Part shown: positions 1-51,772 of the stretch, one piece after another | Position numbering within the stretch: the first letter of the stretch is position 1 | Layout: each line of letters starts with the position of its first letter | Origin: Polyangiaceae bacterium | Lineage (GTDB): Bacteria > Myxococcota_A > Polyangia > Polyangiales > Polyangiaceae | Assembly: GCA_025937835.1 (NCBI GenBank) | Contig: JAICQO010000005.1 | Span: 62,001 to 126,000 of the forward strand | Reading direction: 5' to 3' | Length of the DNA stretch: 64,000 nucleotides | Program-made: the position numbers and the translations under genes | Notes under the pieces: generated by a model | What the model was told of the DNA's origin: nothing | Database searches by the model: none | Seen by the model: only the letters and a program-made list of their open reading frames with translations

Positions 1-1154
1 CACACGCCCACCAGCAGAAACAAAGTCGGATAGCTCGTCGCATTCGCGACCAGGCCGCCACCGAACAGGATCAGCCCGCCACCGAAATAGAACGCGCCAT
101 TCAGCAACGTCAGCATCGCGCCGCGCCGCGCCGGATCCGAGCGTTCCGCGGCGAGCGCGACGAGCGACGGATACAACAGGCCGTGAGCGATGCCGAACGC
201 GAAACCGAACAGCTCGAGGTAGCCCGGCACCAGGAAGGCTACGGAACAGACAACGAGCGCGTAAAATGCGAATGAATACCGCGCCACGAGCGCGCGACCG
301 AATCGGTCGGCGGCGTTTCCGAACAAGAGCCGCACCGCGACCGCCGCCACGGTATAGCCCACGAAGAACCCAGAGACGCGCAGCGAGCCCAGGTCGAGGG
401 CGTGGGGCGGCGTGAACGTGAAGAGCGTGGCGAAGCCGGCGCCGTTCAGCAGCGCTGCATAGGTGATGCGCTTGGCGCCGCGCTTCGGGATCGAGACCGT
501 GGCGCTGGCCTGCAGCCGCGGTGTTTCGGGGACGCCGAGGCCGATCGCGAAGGACAGCGCGGCCATAGCGGCCGCTGCGATGAACACCGCGCTCCAACCG
601 AACGTCAGCGCGGCCGACTCGGCGAGCGCCGGCGCCACCGCGTTCGAGACGAGCGACGCCGTGCCCAGCATGCCGATGGCTTCGCCGAGCCGCGCACCGC
701 TCGCAAGATCGGCGGTCGCCGCCGAGGCCGCGTTGAACACCAGCGCGAACCCGACCCCCTGAACGATGCGCACCGAGAACAGCGTGGCATCGACCGCGTG
801 CGCGAACGGCATCGCCAGCGACGACACACAGGTGATCACGCTGCCCAGCAACAGCGCCGGGCGGCGCCCGACCCGGTCGAGCATCGCCGCCACCAGCGGA
901 GTGGCCAACACGCTGGCCCACATCGCGCTCGCGCCCACGGCGCCGATCGCGGCCGCGCCAGCGTGGAGCTCGGTGGTCAAATACTTCGGAAGCAGGAAGT
1001 AAACGGAGAACGAAAGGCCGAAACAGAACTGGACCGCCAGCAGCCGCACGAAGGCTGCCGTGTACAGCGTCGGTGGTGGCTCCGGCACGGCCGGCAGGCC
1101 CGCGAGGCGCGGCTCGGCCGTGATAGGCAATGGAGTCGGACTTGGAGACGACAT
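1..1154 (-). CDS. MFS transporter, 3' end truncated by window edge
   Basis: Reverse-strand reading from ATG at 1154 gives MSSPSPTPLPITAEPRLAG...FCFGLSFSVYFLLPKYLTTELHAGAAAIGAVGA...LDRVGRRPALLLGS..., multi-TM with the MFS D-R-x-G-R-R loop; open to the window edge. Confidence 0.85.
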   Translation of the reverse strand, partial: MSSPSPTPLPITAEPRLAGLPAVPEPPPTLYTAAFVRLLAVQFCFGLSFSVYFLLPKYLTTELHAGAAAIGAVGASAMWASVLATPLVAAMLDRVGRRPALLLGSVITCVSSLAMPFAHAVDATLFSVRIVQGVGFALVFNAASAATADLASGARLGEAIGMLGTASLVSNAVAPALAESAALTFGWSAVFIAAAAMAALSFAIGLGVPETPRLQASATVSIPKRGAKRITYAALLNGAGFATLFTFTPPHALDLGSLRVSGFFVGYTVAAVAVRLLFGNAADRFGRALVARYSFAFYALVVCSVAFLVPGYLELFGFAFGIAHGLLYPSLVALAAERSDPARRGAMLTLLNGAFYFGGGLILFGGGLVANATSYPTLFLLVGV

Positions 1155-1489
1155 GTCGAGGTTTCCCTCGGCCGACAGAGCTCCAAAATCAGCGAACCCT
1201 CTCGGCCGTATCGGCGGAGAGGGTTTCGTTCAGACCTTGGCTAAGACCGAGGCACCCTCATCCGCCGCCAGGGCGAATGACCCACTTCTGGGCGGCAAGG
1301 TGCTTTCGACAAGCCATGGGCCGATTCAATAGTCTAACGAGAGCGTTTCGTCAATTCGCCGCACGCAGCAAACCCGCGCAAATCCAGTGAGCCCGTAGCG
1401 GAGCGCCACGCGCTTCCCGCCGCTGTCGCGGCAGCCGCCTGAATGATTGGCTCGACGAATGCCAATCACGTCGTTACGTTGGCCGAACG

Positions 1490-3442
1490 ATGCCGCCCGC
1501 CCTGGGGTCACGCCCGCCGCCTCCGCCGCCGGAAACGCGCCCTCCGCCTCAAAACCAAGTCCCCGAGCCCGGTAACGCTCGCCCGAGCTGGCGAGGCTGG
1601 ATCGTGCTCGGGCTCTTGCTCGCGACCTTCTACCTGTGGACCCGCTACGCCGCGAACGAAGAGGCGCAGCCTTCGATCGCGTACACCAGCTTCTACAAGG
1701 CGATCGAGGAGCAGAAGATCCAGTCGGTGACGATGAAGGGGCAGACCATCACCGGTCGCTTCCTCAAGCCGACACCCATCGAAGGCCGCACCCTCGATAC
1801 GTTCCGCACGCTCGTTCCGCTGCAGGAGGATCGCGACCTGATGCCGCTGCTCCGCGACAAGGGCGTGGTGGTGAACGTGAAGAGCGAGGAGCAGCCGTTC
1901 GGCGTTCAGGTGATCGTCTCGCTCTTGCCGTTCGCGCTGATCATCGGTGCCTGGGTGTGGCTGTCGCGCAGGGCGCAGAGCATGATGGGCCCCGGCGGTC
2001 CGCTCGGGATGCTGAAGGGCAAATCCCGCCGTTTCGAGAAAGAGGGCCAGGTCAACGTTCGCTTCGACGACGTGGCCGGTCTCAAGTCGGCCAAGCAGGA
2101 CCTGGTCGAGATCGTTCAGTTTTTGAAAGAGCCGGAGCGCTTCCGCAAGCTCGGCGGCAAGGTGCCGCGCGGCGTGTTGCTGGTCGGCCCTCCCGGTACG
2201 GGCAAGACGCTGTTGGCTCGCGCCGTGGCCGGGGAGGCCGGCGTGCCCTACTTCTCGATCAACGGCTCGGAGTTCATCGAGCTGTTCGTGGGCGTCGGCG
2301 CCTCGCGCGTGCGAGAGCTGTTCGAAGAGGCGAAGAAGGTGGCGCCGGCCATCATCTTCATCGACGAGATCGACGCCGTGGGTCGCTCGCGCGGCGCTGG
2401 GCTCGGCGGCGGCCACGACGAACGCGAACAGACGCTGAATCAGCTACTTTCCGAGATGGACGGCTTCGATCGCAACGATTTGACGATCGTGCTCGCCGCT
2501 ACCAACCGCCCCGACGTGCTCGATCCGGCGTTGCTGCGCCCCGGGCGCTTCGACCGGCGCGTGATCATCGATCGCCCCGAGCTCGGCGCACGCCGCGCGA
2601 TCCTCGAGGTGCACACCCGTGGCAAGCCGCTCGGTCCGGACGTCGACCTGCAGCAGATCGCCGGCAGCACGCCCGGCTTCTCGGGCGCCGATCTCGCGAA
2701 CCTGGTCAACGAGGCCGCGCTGAACGCCACGCGCCGCGGCGCGGAGGCGATCGAGAAGCGCGACTTCACTGCGGCGTACGACAAGATCGTGCTCGGGGAT
2801 TTGCGCGAAACCAAGCTCGATCCCCACGAGAAACGCCGGATCGCCGTGCACGAGTCCGGCCACGCCGTGGTCGCGCATTTCTCGCCGCACGCCGAGCCGC
2901 TCGAGCGCGTCACGATCATCCCGCGCGGCATGGCGCTCGGCGTCACGCAGTACGTTCCGGGGGCGGATCGCCACCTGATGACGGAGCCGCAGCTGCGCGA
3001 CAACCTGCGCATGATGCTGGGCGGCTACACCGCCGAGCGCTTGATCATCGGCAACATCTCGTCGGGCGCCGAGAACGACCTCAAGCGGGCGACCGAGCTC
3101 GCGTTCAAGATGGTGGCCCACTGGGGCATGAGCGAGCGCGTCGGGCCCGTCTATCACGAGCACAAGACCGAGCACCCGTTCCTCGGTCAGACGCTCGCGA
3201 CCGAGGGCGGCACCAGCGACGCGACGATTCACATCATCGAGGACGAGACGCGCAAGATCCTCGCGGCGGCGCTGTCGGGCGCCGAGCAGATCCTGCGCGA
3301 GCACCGACCCGAGATCGATCGCCTGGTCGCGGCCCTGCTGGAGCGCGAGACCGTCGAAAAGGACGAGCTCGGTAAGGTCCTCGGCCCGGGCCAGGCCGGC
3401 ACGGAGCGCGTTCCGGCCAGCATCGGGACCGCGACCGTTTGA
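1490..3442 (+). CDS. ftsH: ATP-dependent zinc metalloprotease FtsH
   Basis: AAA+ Walker A GPPGTGKT, Walker [12 protein letters not shown] region, HESGH zinc-protease motif. Confidence 0.97.
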
Positions 3443-3468
3443 GCCGCGTTCCGGTATAAAGTCGGCCC

Positions 3469-3888
3469 ATGCCGACCGGAACGTGGCTCGCCAAGAGCGA
3501 GCCGTTCAAATACTCCTGGACCCAGCTGGTTACGGACAAGCGGACCACCTGGGACGGCGTGCGCAACTTCGAGGCGCGGAACAACCTGCGCGCCATGAAG
3601 AAGGGCGATCGCGTGCTCTTTTACCACTCGAACGAGGGCAAAGAGGTGGTGGGCGTCGCCAAGGTCGTGGCCGAGGCCTACGCCGACCCGAGCGCGCCGG
3701 GAGAAGACTGGTCCGTCGTGGATCTCGCGCCGCTCAAGCCCCTGAAGGTCCCCGTCACCCTCGCGACGATCAAGGCCGACAAGAAGCTCGCGAACATGGC
3801 GCTCTTACGCCGCTCCCGCCTGAGCGTCGTCCCCGTCACGGCCGCGGAGTTCGAGCGCATCCTCGAACTGGCTCAAACCCGGCTTTGA
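3469..3888 (+). CDS. EVE domain-containing protein
   Basis: WLAKSEPFKYSW...W.GVRN..ARNNLR.MKKGDRVLFYHS, typical EVE/THYN1-like signature. Confidence 0.9.
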   Translation: MPTGTWLAKSEPFKYSWTQLVTDKRTTWDGVRNFEARNNLRAMKKGDRVLFYHSNEGKEVVGVAKVVAEAYADPSAPGEDWSVVDLAPLKPLKVPVTLATIKADKKLANMALLRRSRLSVVPVTAAEFERILELAQTRL

Positions 3889-3918
3889 AAAAACGCTGTG
3901 TGGCGTGATACGGGGGAT

Positions 3919-4086
3919 GCAACAGGAAGGTTGGAAGGCGGGAAGATCGGAATGGGATTTTGGGGAGCGAGCCTGCTGCGCTCGGGCTGCAGCGCCCTAG
4001 CGGCCGCACGTGCTCAGGCCGCGATGACGGCGCAGTCCCTCACCAAAAAAATCCCCTTCCTGTCTTCCCGGTCTTCCTGTTGCCCC
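3919..4086. repeat. Imperfect inverted repeat in convergent intergenic gap (copy A of a two-member family)
   Basis: Left arm GCAACAGGAAGGTTGGAAGGCGGGAAGATCGGAATGGGATTTT (3919-3961); right arm AAAAAAATCCCCTTCCTGTCTTCCCGGTCTTCCTGTTGCCCC (4045-4086) is its imperfect reverse complement. Confidence 0.75.
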
Positions 4087-4115
4087 ATCCGGGCGCGCCG
4101 CGACGCGATGGCCCG

Positions 4116-4337
4116 CTAGCCGGCGGGCTTGGGTTCGCGGCCCTCTTTGAGCTCGACGAGGGTGCTCAGGGCTTCGATCTCGCGCTTGGTTTGGATCTCG
4201 CGCTGGCGTAGCAGCTTGACCTCGGCTTCCATCTTGCGAAGCTCGGCTTCGATCTCGCGCAAGCCGTCCTTCAACGTGTCGCGTTCGGTCTTGAGCAGTT
4301 CGAGCTCGATCGGCAAGTGGTCCTCCGGGGTGGGCAC
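4116..4337 (-). CDS. Small coiled-coil hypothetical protein (73 aa)
   Basis: Charged heptad-like sequence ELELLKTERDTLKDGLREIEAELRKMEAEVKLLRQREIQTKREIEAL. Confidence 0.6.
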   Translation of the reverse strand: MPTPEDHLPIELELLKTERDTLKDGLREIEAELRKMEAEVKLLRQREIQTKREIEALSTLVELKEGREPKPAG

Positions 4338-4416
4338 CTTTCGTTAGCAAACTCCGGGCGCCCGGAAAACGCATTTGTTCGGGCCGGCCTCGGGCGGGCC
4401 GTCGGTCAGCGGTCGG

Positions 4417-5451
4417 TCAGCCCTCGGCGACGACGCGATTTCGGCCCTGGGCCTTGGCGAGGTACAGGCGCCGGTCCGCGATTCGGATCAGCTCTTCCGC
4501 GCTGGGCTTGTCGGTGCAGGTGATGGAGGCGCAGCCCACGCTGAACGTGACGGGAACCGCCTGCCCGTTGGCCATGATCGGGTGGGCCTCGATCGCCATG
4601 CGCAGGCGCTCCCCGAGCTTTCGGGCCCCGGCCAGGGTGATGCCGCGCAAAATCACCGCGAACTCCTCGCCCCCGAAGCGGGCGAAGACGTCCTCTGTCC
4701 GGAGCGAGCGCAGGGAGAGCTTGGCGACCTCGCTCAAGACCACGTCGCCCACTTGATGCCCGTACGTGTCGTTGACCCGCTTGAAGTGGTCGATGTCGAG
4801 CAGCGCCAGTGAGGTATCGGACGAGTGCCGGGCCGCGAACGCGACCTCGGCGCGCAGCCGCTCGTCGAAATGAAGGCGGTTGTACGCGCCCGTCAGCGCG
4901 TCGCGCGTGCTCGACTCGTAGAGCCGGCGAAACAGCCGCTCCTCTCGCAGGTCGGTCACGGTGAAGCGGAACGAGGCTTGTGCGCCGAAGCTGAGCCAGG
5001 CGCCGTCTTCGATCCGGCGCTTCTCGACGCGCTCGCTGGCGACGAATGTGCCGTTGCGCGAGCGCAGGTCCTCAACCCAGAAATAGCCCTGCTCGTCGCG
5101 CGAGATCCGCGCGTGGAAGCGGCTGATGCTCTCCTCGTCGATGCGGAGCGCATTGGTGGCGTGCCGCCCGATCGTGAACGGCAGCGTCTCGATCGCGATC
5201 ACGAGCCCCGCGTGGACGCCGTCCATGCGCAGCAAGAGCGCGCGCTCGGCTCCCAGGTTCGGGATGCCGGCGAACTCGCTGCGCAGCGAGACCTCGGTCG
5301 TGCGCGGCTCGTCGTCGAATTCCGACTCCGGCAAGCTCGGCAGCGGCGGGCGCATCGACTTGTCGGTCACGGCGGAGGAGGCCTTCGGTCGCGTCGGTTC
5401 CCCGGGTAACCAAGCCTGCCGCTGGTCGCGGTCCGGCGGTCGCGAGGTCAT
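4417..5451 (-). CDS. FHA domain-containing diguanylate cyclase (FHA-GGDEF)
   Basis: FHA core (TIGRHATNALRIDEESISRFHARI...DLRSRNGTFV) plus GGEEF active site with RTED-x5-GGEEF I-site; ATG chosen at 5451. Confidence 0.93.
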   Translation of the reverse strand: MTSRPPDRDQRQAWLPGEPTRPKASSAVTDKSMRPPLPSLPESEFDDEPRTTEVSLRSEFAGIPNLGAERALLLRMDGVHAGLVIAIETLPFTIGRHATNALRIDEESISRFHARISRDEQGYFWVEDLRSRNGTFVASERVEKRRIEDGAWLSFGAQASFRFTVTDLREERLFRRLYESSTRDALTGAYNRLHFDERLRAEVAFAARHSSDTSLALLDIDHFKRVNDTYGHQVGDVVLSEVAKLSLRSLRTEDVFARFGGEEFAVILRGITLAGARKLGERLRMAIEAHPIMANGQAVPVTFSVGCASITCTDKPSAEELIRIADRRLYLAKAQGRNRVVAEG

Positions 5452-32858: not shown

Positions 32859-33040
32859 GGTGTGGATTCGTGGCTGGAGAGGCGCGAGGTCCAGTGGCGC
32901 CTAGCCCCCACTGCTGCACCCGACGTGCCAGGTTAGCCCTCACCCGCGCAGCACTGCAAACGCTCTCTGTTGGGTAAGATCACCCAGCCCTGGCGCGGCG
33001 CTTTGCACCCGTTGTGGCGGCGCTGCGTGGCGCAAAACGA

Positions 33041-33110
33041 GGGGTGAGTGGTTCCCGCTCGCAATGCTCCAATCGCTCTCGGTGGCCTAGGGCTTGCAGC
33101 CACTCACCCC
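33041..33110 (+). promoter_or_regulatory. Long hairpin in leader of downstream gene
   Basis: Perfect 11-bp arms GGGGTGAGTGG (33041-33051) and CCACTCACCCC (33100-33110), followed by AAGGAG and TTG start. Confidence 0.6.
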
Positions 33111-41576: not shown

Positions 41577-43457
41577 CTATTGGTCCTTGACCCGAGTCGT
41601 GAAGGTGGGCGCGTGGATGATGCCGCCCAGGATACTGGTCAGCGTGTAGTTGCCGGCCGCGGCTTCCTTTCGAACCGCGTCGTGATTGCAGATGCGTTGC
41701 TCCCAGTCCATGCGCCCGTGCGCGTAGTACGACCAGTAGCGCACGAGGCAGGAGCGAACGGCTTCGTTCCCGACCAGGTATTTCGTCAGGCTCTCGGCGC
41801 CGTCGAGCGGCACCTCCGTGCCGTCGGGGGCCGAGTAGATCGTGCCGGTTGCGTCGATCGGCATGTTGCCTTCCGTGTCGCGGTAGCGCCCGAACGCATC
41901 GTAGTGCTCGAGCGCGAAGCCGACCGGGTCCATCATCCGGTGACAGCCGGCGCAGTTCGCGTTCTTGCTGTGCTCGGAGTACCGCTCGCGGTTGTTCTTG
42001 AACGAGGCGGGGCCCGCCAGGTTGGTGTCGAGGTCGGCGGGCACCTCGGGCAGGTCCTGGCACAGCAGTCGTTCACGGATCACTCGGCCGCGCTGCACGG
42101 GCGACGAGTTCTCCGGCTGCGCGTGAGCCGTCAGGAACGCGGCGTGTCCGAGCAGCCCCGGAGCGCGCGTGCCGGCAGGCAGATCGACTCGCTGCGAGGA
42201 GCCGTTCACGTTATTGATGCCGTAGAACTGCCCGAGCTCGCGGCTCACGAACGTGTAGTTGGCGCCGAACAGGTCATCGACCGTTCCCTGGCTCGAGAAC
42301 GCATTCAGGAAGAAGTCCGATGTCTCGTGGAGCATCGCCTCGCGCATCGCGTGGGTCAGGTCGTAGACCGACATCTCCTTCGCCTTCTCCGGCAGCTCGG
42401 TGAGCTCGAGCCAGCCGTAGACGAAGTTCTTCAGCGGTTCCTTCGCCTTCTGGTCGTTGAGCAGGCGGTTCTTGGCCTGATCGATGCCTTCCCGTGTGGC
42501 GAGCTTGCCGCTGGCCGCGTCGGCGAGCAGCTGCGCGTCGGGCGTCGTGTCGAGCAGCAGGTAAGACAGCTCGCTCGCGATCTCGTAGCCGGTGAGCTGG
42601 AAGACGCCGTTCTTCTCTTCGCCGAGCTCGCGTCGATAGAGCAGGTAGGGCGACTGGAGGAACGCCGTCAGCACGACCTCGAGGCCCGCGTCGAAGCTCT
42701 CTTCACCCGCAAAGAGCTTCTCGTACTCGCTGACGCGCGCATCGGGCAGCGGCTCGCGCTGCACCTTGGTGCCAAAGCTCTGGATCACCTGGCGCCAGCA
42801 CTGAGCGTCGTGGTTGTTGCAGTTGGCGATCTGCCCCTTCTTGTTCTGCACCGCCCACGAAGCGACGCTCTCCGCGTAGTTCATGAGCAGCTCGGCGGTC
42901 AGCGCCTCGACGACCGGGGCGTCCGCGTCGACGAAGAAACCGAGGATCGCCGGATCGGTGAGCGTCTCCGCTTCCGGAACGTTCGGGTCCTGGAACAGGT
43001 CGACGAGCGAGTTGCGGTACTGCGTCGCAGTCAGGCGGCGGATCAAGCGCGGGCCCGGCGTGGCGCAATCCTGCAGCGGTGCCGACGGCGGCGGATTCGG
43101 CGTCGTCGAAGTCGGAGTCGGGGTGGGCGTTCCCGGGGTGCCCGGAGTGCCTGGCGTGCCCGGAGTGCTCGGTGTTCCCGGTGTTCCGGGGGTGCTCGGC
43201 GAGCCGGGTGTTCCGGGGGTGCTCGGGGTTCCCGGCGTGCCCGGAGTGCTCGGTGTTCCCGGCGTTCCGGGGGTGCTCGGTGAGCCGGGCGTTCCCGGTG
43301 TCCCCGGTGTTCCCGGTGTTCCGGGCATGTCGCCCGGCTCTTGCGCAGTGATCTCGCCGGAGCATCCTGCCGCCAATGCCGCGAACAACGCGAGCCATGC
43401 GGCGCGCGCCGTTCGATTCACCAGCCGCGCGTTCGATCGTTCTTCGAGTCCGCTCAT
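41577..43457 (-). CDS. DUF1592/DUF1588/DUF1585-type lipoprotein with CxxCH motif and [10 protein letters not shown] repeat linker
   Basis: Lipobox LAAGCSGEI; linker ([10 protein letters not shown])n; [57 protein letters not shown]. Confidence 0.92.
43126..43329. repeat. 9-bp-based tandem repeat encoding the PGTP/PSTP/PGSP linker
   Basis: Repeated GTKCCCGGNGTKCCNGG units in frame with the lipoprotein. Confidence 0.85.
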
Positions 43458-49611: not shown

Positions 49612-49668
49612 CCTCGATTCAAAACCGACTGGATGCGGCTCGGGGCGCGGCGGGTTAAGCTGCGCCCC

Positions 49669-50082
49669 ATGTTCCAGGACGCCCAGGCCGAGGCGGCGGT
49701 CTTTCTGGCCAACGAGAGCTTTTATCGCGCCTTCAGCGACGGGGATTACCAGGCGATGAGCAAGCTCTGGGCGCAGCACGTCCCGGTGGCTTGCTTTCAC
49801 CCCACCGCGCCCGCCTTGATCGGTCGGGAAGCGGTGCTGCAGAGCTTTCGTCAAATCTTGCGCGGAGCGCCGACCTTCGCGTTGCGCTGCGAAGCGGCGG
49901 TGGTCACGCTGGTGAACGATACGGCGATCCTCACTTGCTACGAGGGCGCAGGGGACGAGCCCGCACACCTCGCGGCGACCAACGTGTTCGTGGTCGAAGA
50001 CGGCAACTGGCGGATGGTGCACCACCACGCGGGCCCGTTGTCTCGACCGCTCCGGCGGTCCGCCCCGCCGATCGTTCACTGA
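49669..50082 (+). CDS. SnoaL-like/NTF2-like protein
   Basis: FLANESFYRAFSDGDYQAMSKLWA...IGREAVLQSFRQIL...FVVEDGNWRMVHHHAGPL. Confidence 0.88.
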   Translation: MFQDAQAEAAVFLANESFYRAFSDGDYQAMSKLWAQHVPVACFHPTAPALIGREAVLQSFRQILRGAPTFALRCEAAVVTLVNDTAILTCYEGAGDEPAHLAATNVFVVEDGNWRMVHHHAGPLSRPLRRSAPPIVH

Positions 50083-50103
50083 GCCAGGTGCGGCGACGCC
50101 GCC

Positions 50104-50261
50104 TGTCCGATCCGCGAGGTCGGCACGATCGTTGCTGCCGGACAGGCCGTGCTCACCCGTACGGACAGCAGCGGCTGGAAAATCGAGCCTTTGGCGCTCG
50201 GCGTGTCCGCCCGCGTGTCCGTGTCCGTGTCCGCTCACTCGGGTCGGCGGACACTTGTCCG
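50104..50261. promoter_or_regulatory. Cluster of nine TGTCCG/CGGACA hexamers upstream of a sigma factor gene
   Basis: Hexamers at 50104, 50139, 50162, 50204, 50216, 50222, 50228, 50248, 50256; palindrome GCGGACA-ct-TGTCCGC at 50247-50262. Confidence 0.7.
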
Positions 50262-50330
50262 CTCCGCTGCCTGCGAGTCGGCCCATCGGTCGCGGGCCCG
50301 TGATTCGAGCACGAAAGGTTCGCCGTCACC

Positions 50331-50894
50331 GTGAATCATCGCGAAGCTCTGGAAGAGGTCATGGTCCGCTATGCGCGCGGTGAGGACGCGGCGTTTGCCG
50401 AGCTCTTCCGGCAGCTCTCGCCGTTGCTCGCAGGCTATTTGAAGCGGCTGTGCGGCTCACGCGAGCTGGCCCGGGACCTCGTGCAGGAGACTTTTCTGTG
50501 CATCCACCGCGGGCGAGCGCAGTTCGAGAGCGGGCGCGGCGTCGAGCGCTGGGCGTACGCGATCGCGCGCAATTGCTTCGTCAGCCACCTCCGCCTTTCG
50601 CGGTCGCGCTTGGCGAGCGTCAGCCACCCGATCGACGAGCTGCCGCTCACATCGAGCCTCGATGGCGACGGAGAGGCCGTTCTGGCGGCGCGGGAAGCAG
50701 AGGAGCGTGCGGTGGTCGCTCTGCAAGGGATGCCGCGGTCGCAGCGGGAAGCGTTCGTTTTGCTGCGCCTGCAGGGCGCGAGCGTGCATGACGCGGCGGA
50801 GCGGCTCGGTATTTCGCAGAGTGCCGTGAAGCTCCGTGCGTTTCGCGCGGGCGAGTCGATGCGCGAGGCCTTCGGACAGCAAAGCGCGGCGTAG
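50331..50894 (+). CDS. RNA polymerase sigma factor, sigma-70/ECF-like
   Basis: Region 2 DLVQETFLCIHRGRAQF..GVERWAYAIARNCF; region 4 GASVHDAAERLGISQSAVKLRAFRAGESMR. Confidence 0.88.
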   Translation: MNHREALEEVMVRYARGEDAAFAELFRQLSPLLAGYLKRLCGSRELARDLVQETFLCIHRGRAQFESGRGVERWAYAIARNCFVSHLRLSRSRLASVSHPIDELPLTSSLDGDGEAVLAAREAEERAVVALQGMPRSQREAFVLLRLQGASVHDAAERLGISQSAVKLRAFRAGESMREAFGQQSAA

Positions 50895-50914: not shown

Positions 50915-51772
50915 TCAGCCGCCGGTTTCGAAGCCGGGGTACAGGGTCATTCCGCCGTCCACGTAGAGCGTGGCGCCCGTAATGTAGTCGGAGTCGTCGG
51001 AAGCGAGCCACACGGCGACGCGGCCGATTTCGCTGGGCTCTCCGATGCGCTTGTAGGGGATCAACGTCATCAGCGAGTTGTAGGCGTCGCGCGTGCCCCA
51101 GGCGTCCATGTTGATCGGCGTGCGGACGGCGCCCGGCGAGATCGCGTTCACGCGGATCCGGTGCGGCGCCATCTCCTGCGCGATGCTCTTCATCATCATC
51201 GACACCCCGCCCTTCGAGGTCGCGTAGTTGACGTGGCCGGCCCACGGGATCACGTCGTGCACCGAGCTGATGCACAGGATCTTCCCGGCGCTGACCGAGA
51301 CGTCGCGCCGGATCCCACGGCGCTTGAACTCGCGCACGGCAGCGCGCGAGCACAGGAACTGACCCTTCAGGTTGACGTTCATCACGAGCTCCCAGTCCGA
51401 CAGGCTGAGCTCGTCGAACGGCGCGTCCTTCTGCAGGCCGGCGTTGTTCACCAGGATATCGACGGTGCCGAGCTCCTCGATCATCGTGGCGAACAAGTGC
51501 TCGACGTCGGCCTCGGAGCTGACGTCGGCGCGGTGCGCGTAGGCGTTGGCGCCGCAGCGCCGCACCTCGGCGACGACCTTCTGCGCCTCCTCCTCGCGCG
51601 TCACGTAGTTGACCACCACGTCCGCGCCCGCGTGGCCGAGGGCGACCGCGATCGCCTTGCCGATCCCGGAGTTGGCGCCGGTGACCAGGGCTTTCTGGCC
51701 TTTCAGGCTCTTGACGATCGGACAGGCGGGGGCTTCGTCCGCTGCTCCCTGCTCGCTGAAATAGTCGCGCAT
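50915..51772 (-). CDS. SDR family oxidoreductase (glucose 1-dehydrogenase-like)
   Basis: VTGANSGIGKAIA, NNAG, YATSKGG, ISPGAVRTPIN, ITGATLYVDGGM. Confidence 0.93.
   Translation of the reverse strand: MRDYFSEQGAADEAPACPIVKSLKGQKALVTGANSGIGKAIAVALGHAGADVVVNYVTREEEAQKVVAEVRRCGANAYAHRADVSSEADVEHLFATMIEELGTVDILVNNAGLQKDAPFDELSLSDWELVMNVNLKGQFLCSRAAVREFKRRGIRRDVSVSAGKILCISSVHDVIPWAGHVNYATSKGGVSMMMKSIAQEMAPHRIRVNAISPGAVRTPINMDAWGTRDAYNSLMTLIPYKRIGEPSEIGRVAVWLASDDSDYITGATLYVDGGMTLYPGFETGG

Follow-up and report, generated by a model that had tools for sequence, protein, structure and literature searches.

Nine TGTCCG hexamers upstream of an ECF sigma factor gene as probable binding sites of an efflux-linked sigma-54 activator in a Polyangiaceae bacterium

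The UAS of NifA and NtrC comprise symmetric short half-sites, which are read by a Fis-type HTH upstream of -24/-12 promoters and typically lie 50-200 bp upstream of the promoter. The arrays described here differ from them in the half-site as well as in the spacing. The placement of UAS upstream of -24/-12 promoters is documented (PMC7057263). Myxobacteria have a great many enhancer-binding proteins, and neither sites nor targets are known for most of them. For Nla28, a sigma-54 enhancer-binding protein of Myxococcus xanthus, 8-bp half-sites, often three to five, were described near promoters of the form TGGCACG-N4-TTGCW (PMC9765219). The arrays reported here likewise combine several short half-sites with a nearby sigma-54 promoter in a myxobacterium, whereas the half-site is CT(C/G)CG(C/G)AG for Nla28 and TGTCCG, with a preferred dyad of CGGACA-N2-TGTCCG, in the present case. 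The targets differ as well, with development for Nla28 compared to efflux, TonB and ECF genes here.

According to the description in PMC3707914, the kinase and the NtrC-type sigma-54 response regulator of CorSR in M. xanthus are encoded with the envelope and transport genes they control, and copA is controlled by sigma-54/CorR as well as by the ECF factor CorE. On the level of this description, CorSR resembles the system proposed below, in which kinase and regulator are also encoded with envelope and transport genes, but the CorSR operon is copper-specific. An ECF sigma gene that is read from a sigma-54 promoter under enhancer-binding proteins is described in PMC5263251 for the HrpRS-sigma-54-HrpL system of Pseudomonas syringae. 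As far as described there, this sigma-54-to-ECF cascade is similar to the one proposed for our locus, while activators and target programme are unrelated to those found here. A literature search for TGTCCG as a regulatory motif yielded nothing relevant. The HrpRS/HrpL system is not known to have a TGTCCG array.

The array and the predicted sigma-54 promoter in the window

The window is a stretch of 64,000 nucleotides (64 kb) from a 6.92-Mb draft genome, for which all genome-wide statements rest on pattern searches. A sequence-only reading of this DNA had reported nine TGTCCG/CGGACA hexamers upstream of a sigma factor gene, and all nine were found by direct count. The features of the locus are as follows (window coordinates).

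49633..50082, plus strand: SnoaL_3-domain gene, upstream; not an anti-sigma factor
50104..50261, unstranded: array of nine TGTCCG/CGGACA hexamers, candidate sites of a sigma-54 enhancer-binding protein
50104..50109, plus strand: TGTCCG hexamer, left part of a 9-bp inverted repeat; only hexamer upstream of the sigma-54 promoter
50121..50136, plus strand: predicted sigma-54 promoter CGGCACG-ATCG-TTGCT (CGGCACGATCGTTGCT); GG of the -24 element at 50122-50123, GC of the -12 element at 50134-50135
50139..50144, minus strand: hexamer, right part of the 9-bp inverted repeat, immediately downstream of the -12 element
50162..50167, minus strand: hexamer
50204..50209, plus strand: hexamer
50216..50233, plus strand: three tandem hexamers TGTCCGTGTCCGTGTCCG
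50248..50261, unstranded: perfect dyad CGGACA-CT-TGTCCG, of the type by which the genome-wide array family is defined
50331..50894, plus strand: ECF sigma factor gene, proposed target; Sigma70_r2 and Sigma70_r4_2, 187 aa, GTG start at 50331
50915..51772, minus strand: convergent oxidoreductase-like gene, downstream; presumably of the short-chain dehydrogenase family, as recognised by eye

The hexamers start at 50104, 50204, 50216, 50222, 50228 and 50256 on the plus strand and at 50139, 50162 and 50248 on the minus strand, and the whole array lies inside the intergenic stretch 50083-50330, between the SnoaL_3 gene and the ECF sigma gene. The three tandem hexamers and the 9-bp inverted repeat GCCTGTCCG/CGGACAGGC, with arms at 50101-50109 and 50139-50147, had been described exactly, while the inverted pair with the 2-bp spacer was confirmed in its presence but occupies 50248-50261 instead of 50247-50262. 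With 41 observed compared to 44.8 expected copies, TGTCCG is not over-represented in the window, so that it stands out solely by its clustering. The window array was the densest TGTCCG/CGGACA cluster in 1.68 Mb of scanned genome, where no other 160-bp stretch approached nine hexamers. Elsewhere in the window, positions 43125-43326 hold tandem repeats (periods 9, 18, 27 and 81 bp) that are probably repetitive coding sequence of low complexity.

The putative promoter CGGCACGATCGTTGCT, which the earlier reading had not recorded, was found by scanning both strands. It corresponds to the TGGCACG-N4-TTGCW pattern with the GG/GC spacing and is the sole zero-mismatch match to YGGCACGNNNNTTGCW in the 64-kb window. 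Based on a sigma-54 matrix that approximates the published consensus and on genes called by a simple script, its score of 15.2 ranks second among the sigma-54 sites of the window, and a site at least as good was present in 7 of the 287 intergenic regions that measure 150-400 bp (~2.4 %). The site is enclosed by the array and by the 9-bp inverted repeat, and it is oriented toward the ECF sigma gene. A transcript starting from it is predicted to begin near 50147, at the distance of ~12 bp from the GC element expected for sigma-54, with a leader of ~184 nt. The organism itself encodes sigma-54, since rpoN is present (Sigma54_DBD match with E = 5e-63, G000:C207).

Both neighbours of the ECF gene were checked, and the SnoaL_3 gene on one side and the convergent oxidoreductase-like gene on the other agree with the earlier claim that no anti-sigma gene adjoins it. 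The sequence-only reading had also named an absence of the array from orthologous loci as evidence against it. For this one locus such an absence was observed: the closest homologs of the ECF protein (47-51 % identical), which are not established as true orthologs, carry no array upstream.

The array family in the genome and in related Polyangiales

A genome scan for TGTCCG clusters, as proposed earlier, revealed that the window array belongs to a genome-wide family. Triple TGTCCG with short gaps gave 12 matches in the genome compared to none for the reversed pattern, and the CGGACA-N2-TGTCCG dyad was found in 14 copies at 12 loci, again compared to none for the reversed control. Among the 34 CGGACA..TGTCCG pairs with spacers of 0-30, exactly N2 was present in 14 (P about 2e-14), whereas TGTCCG..CGGACA pairs in the genome showed no comparable spacer peak. 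In the dyad flanks, with the dyads themselves excluded, the same hexamer was the most enriched one (16 compared to 1.7 expected, P = 6e-11). The dyad had been picked after inspection of the data; the promoter, co-occurrence and gammaproteobacterial tests played no part in this choice.

The dyad clusters are located in intergenic regions or at gene edges, mostly with extra hexamers, and their neighbour genes are diverse. The link to sigma genes implied by the earlier reading does not hold in general, as most arrays in the genome lie in front of genes for efflux, TonB/ExbB, transporters and lipoproteins. A regulation confined to sigma genes was ruled out, because many unrelated genes are flanked by arrays.

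On inspection, many arrays proved to have TGGCAC-N5-TTGC-like sites nearby in their intergenic regions. Scored with the approximate matrix, 9 of the 12 dyad loci of the genome had a strong outward sigma-54 site (P = 1e-8), while such a site was present at 40 of 607 intergenic points chosen at random, and related array loci gave 19 of 25 compared to 4 of 170 controls. For own and related palindromic loci, 28 of 33 carried a strong outward site compared to 8.5 % of the controls, which corresponds to the association of repeated symmetric sites with -24/-12 promoters known from UAS, while inward-pointing sites stayed near background. Since the array loci are partly non-independent, the P values overstate this association. 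On the sequence level, the outward promoters have the layout of enhancer-activated sigma-54 promoters with a classical upstream enhancer.

Some loci of the genome do not show this layout. The tandem-only clusters L079, L091, L095 and L096 have no sigma-54 site and may be due to chance. Both L089 and L105 depart from the array-promoter arrangement. At L105 (9986-10024), two perfect dyads 25 bp apart lie upstream of an rpoH-like gene, and no sigma-54 site was found within 250 bp on either side, so arrays without sigma-54 promoters exist. Conservation of this arrangement was ruled out, as orthologs of the rpoH-like gene carry no dyads; the arrays near second rpoH copies in genomes G005 and G006 belong to the adjoining gene. 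Independently of TGTCCG, L133 (G000:C25:1-20000) contains many TTGGCG/CGCCAA clusters at about 16-4590, several of them ~120 bp apart and without a gene call.

Among related Polyangiales, tandem TGTCCG clusters are mostly coding-like, with spacing in multiples of three, and the palindromic form was therefore used for relatives; dyads with AC or AT as spacer are often coding there as well. The specific pattern of an extra hexamer plus the dyad occurred in 18 of 184 genomes, with 42 matches compared to 3 for the control. The adjoining genes recur: divergent exbB/tonB in G000, G033 and G050, membrane-fusion, outer-membrane, RND or ABC efflux genes in G000, G001, G020, G027, G043, G117 and G118, and a response regulator gene in G145 and G117. 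In two related species (L064 and L067), a loose TGTCCG array precedes a lipoprotein gene at a matching intergenic position, and the shifted hexamer positions represent site turnover inside a kept array.

The candidate activator P0001 and its gammaproteobacterial relatives

G000:C160:31838-33244: gene of the putative activator P0001, an NtrC-type response regulator, sharing its operon with an outer-membrane efflux protein gene

P0001 comprises a receiver domain, an AAA+ domain with GAFTGA and HTH_8 (Pfam matches; GAFTGA read in the translation), i.e. the receiver, AAA+ sigma-54 domain and Fis-type HTH that characterise an NtrC-family sigma-54 response regulator. Compared to the named equivalogs AtoC, NtrC, NifA, ZraR and others, it scored below all cut-offs, far below in the case of NifA and NtrC, with AtoC as the best at 364.8 compared to a required 714. 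At L104, an array separates the P0001 operon, with its outer-membrane protein and NtrC-type response regulator, from a divergent operon that encodes a membrane-fusion protein, an AcrB-type RND pump and a histidine kinase. In G145, the regulator directly adjoining the array is 56 % identical to P0001.

Clear orthologs of P0001, called at 449 bits or more with the next proteins at 367.5 or less, were found in 27 of the 184 genomes. Among the 18 genomes that have the specific array, 16 carry an ortholog, compared to 11 of the 166 that lack it (P = 4e-14), and counted by genus the co-occurrence was 11 of 12 compared to 4 of 72 (P = 8e-10). In 13 of the 16 genomes, the ortholog gene lies no more than ~10 kb from an array. 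Looser arrays are held by G005, G006 and G009 among the 11 ortholog-bearing genomes without the specific array; no ortholog was found in G016 and G063, which both have the specific array. Based on this co-occurrence and adjacency, P0001 is named here as the presumed activator.

A search of named genomes revealed relatives of P0001 with ~49-59 % identity in Lysobacter, Pseudoalteromonas, Alteromonas, Glaciecola, Tahibacter and others. At 54 gammaproteobacterial activator loci, the 180 bp preceding strong sigma-54 sites were compared with background without use of the hexamer, and the top 7-mer was TGTCCGC/GCGGACA (24 compared to 0.8 expected). Three or more hexamers were present at 35 of the 54 loci, and a strong sigma-54 site lay beside them at 26 of these 35 array loci compared to 30 of 324 random positions. 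The dyads are mainly TGTCCG-N0/N3-CGGACA, together with CGGACA-N7-TGTCCG, while the exact CGGACA-N2-TGTCCG dyad is absent at the gammaproteobacterial activator loci. Since TGTCCG is enriched in both groups and the dyad spacing is different, the half-site is conserved but its geometry is not. At L294:226-7933, L314:955-8696 and similar loci, a conserved gammaproteobacterial operon encodes HlyD, an ABC ATPase, MacB/FtsX permeases, a sigma-54 response regulator and a kinase; TGTCCG arrays and a sigma-54 promoter precede it.

Proposed mechanism and alternative explanations

The nine hexamers of the window are very probably landing sites of one sigma-54 activator encoded beside drug-efflux pump genes. 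As a whole, we consider it probable that the half-site array with its dyad is bound by an NtrC-type sigma-54 activator which controls the ECF gene. The earlier suggestion of a repressor or activator was thus right in kind, and the evidence favours an activator of the sigma-54 enhancer-binding class. The DNA itself shows the arrays and the promoters, the activator gene occurring together with the arrays and next to them, and the recurrence of the hexamer at activator loci of another phylum; we infer the physical binding, the activation, its signal and the control of the ECF gene by the window promoter.

In the proposed mechanism, the efflux-linked histidine kinase, triggered plausibly by an envelope toxicant, would activate P0001, which would bind the TGTCCG arrays at about a dozen loci and open sigma-54 polymerase at the promoters of pump, TonB/ExbB and ECF sigma genes. 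In the window, transcription from the promoter at 50121-50136 would begin near 50147 and proceed through the remaining array into the ECF sigma gene, and the ECF factor would form a second regulatory tier under the sigma-54 activator. Such a probable two-tier circuit, with an ECF factor that has no adjacent anti-sigma gene, could explain the control of orphan ECF factors. Sequence alone would provide one activator family, in two phyla, with a candidate binding code in the form of TGTCCG arrays, with a protein and with a set of targets, namely RND and MacAB-type pumps, exbB/tonB, ECF sigma genes and lipoproteins. Taken jointly, two further statements are offered tentatively, at somewhat less than even confidence: that a sigma-54 promoter lying within the enhancer array that serves it, and upstream of most half-sites, puts the ECF factor under the efflux-pump sensor, and that the activator family retains TGTCCG in Polyangiales and Gammaproteobacteria alike but differs between them in the dyad spacing. 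If true, the regulons of this family would be readable directly from genome sequence.

The weak point of this explanation is the position of the half-sites. Only one hexamer lies upstream of the window promoter (12 bp away) and eight of the nine lie downstream, one of them overlapping the predicted start region, whereas at most other loci the sites are located upstream as in a UAS. Due to this arrangement, the window is unusual among the array loci, and its array is perhaps enhancer-like but not a standard UAS. Enhancer function from a downstream position is possible in principle. The mechanism is further weakened by the lack of an array at the closest ECF homologs, by the dyads of L105 without a sigma-54 site and by the difference in dyad spacing between Polyangiales and Gammaproteobacteria. 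Alternatively, the same activator could bind without switching on the ECF gene through the sigma-54 promoter; the downstream half-sites would act as a roadblock or titrating decoy, and another promoter would serve the gene. The departures of L089 and L105 from the rule fit this alternative as well. We regard it as rather unlikely, since the promoter embedded in the array is the only perfect consensus match in 64 kb and points toward the gene, and ECF sigma genes recur as array targets in G050 and G072 with array and sigma-54 promoter in the usual order.

A different DNA-binding protein on the hexamers, for example a repressor, with an indirect link to the activator, appears improbable. The short symmetric CGGACA-N2-TGTCCG dyad would presumably suit many repressors too, but the presence of the array tracks the activator gene across the 184 genomes, sigma-54 promoters adjoin the arrays, and in the other phylum the motif most enriched ahead of the sigma-54 sites of activator loci is this hexamer.

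There is very little to be said for a REP-like palindromic repeat dispersed in the genome, or for slippage as the origin of the array, in either case without a regulatory role. Tandem TGTCCG copies resemble slippage, and the arrays of L089 and L092 lie between convergent genes; by eye, however, the loci share nothing beyond hexamers and dyad spacing, and 14 dyads in 6.9 Mb do not match a REP/BIME-type repeat. The spacing fixed at N2, the strong outward promoters and the same gene types across genera point in the same direction.

Least probable of all is an RNA structure formed by complementary hexamers in the sigma mRNA leader, as an attenuator or riboregulator: the predicted transcript from 50147 holds the remaining array and folds better than shuffles (z = -2.7), but this moderate effect is expected since the hexamers are mutually complementary, the array region has no Rfam match, and most other arrays lie upstream of the promoter, outside the transcribed leader, so that the earlier suggestion of an RNA structure is not needed.

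Apart from the array, two strong sigma-54-like sites lie back to back in one intergenic region of the window (32915-33098), TGGCACGTCGGGTGCA on the minus strand at 32930 and TGGCCTAGGGCTTGCA on the plus strand at 33083. This region contains no TGTCCG hexamers, and the pair is probably the target of another activator.
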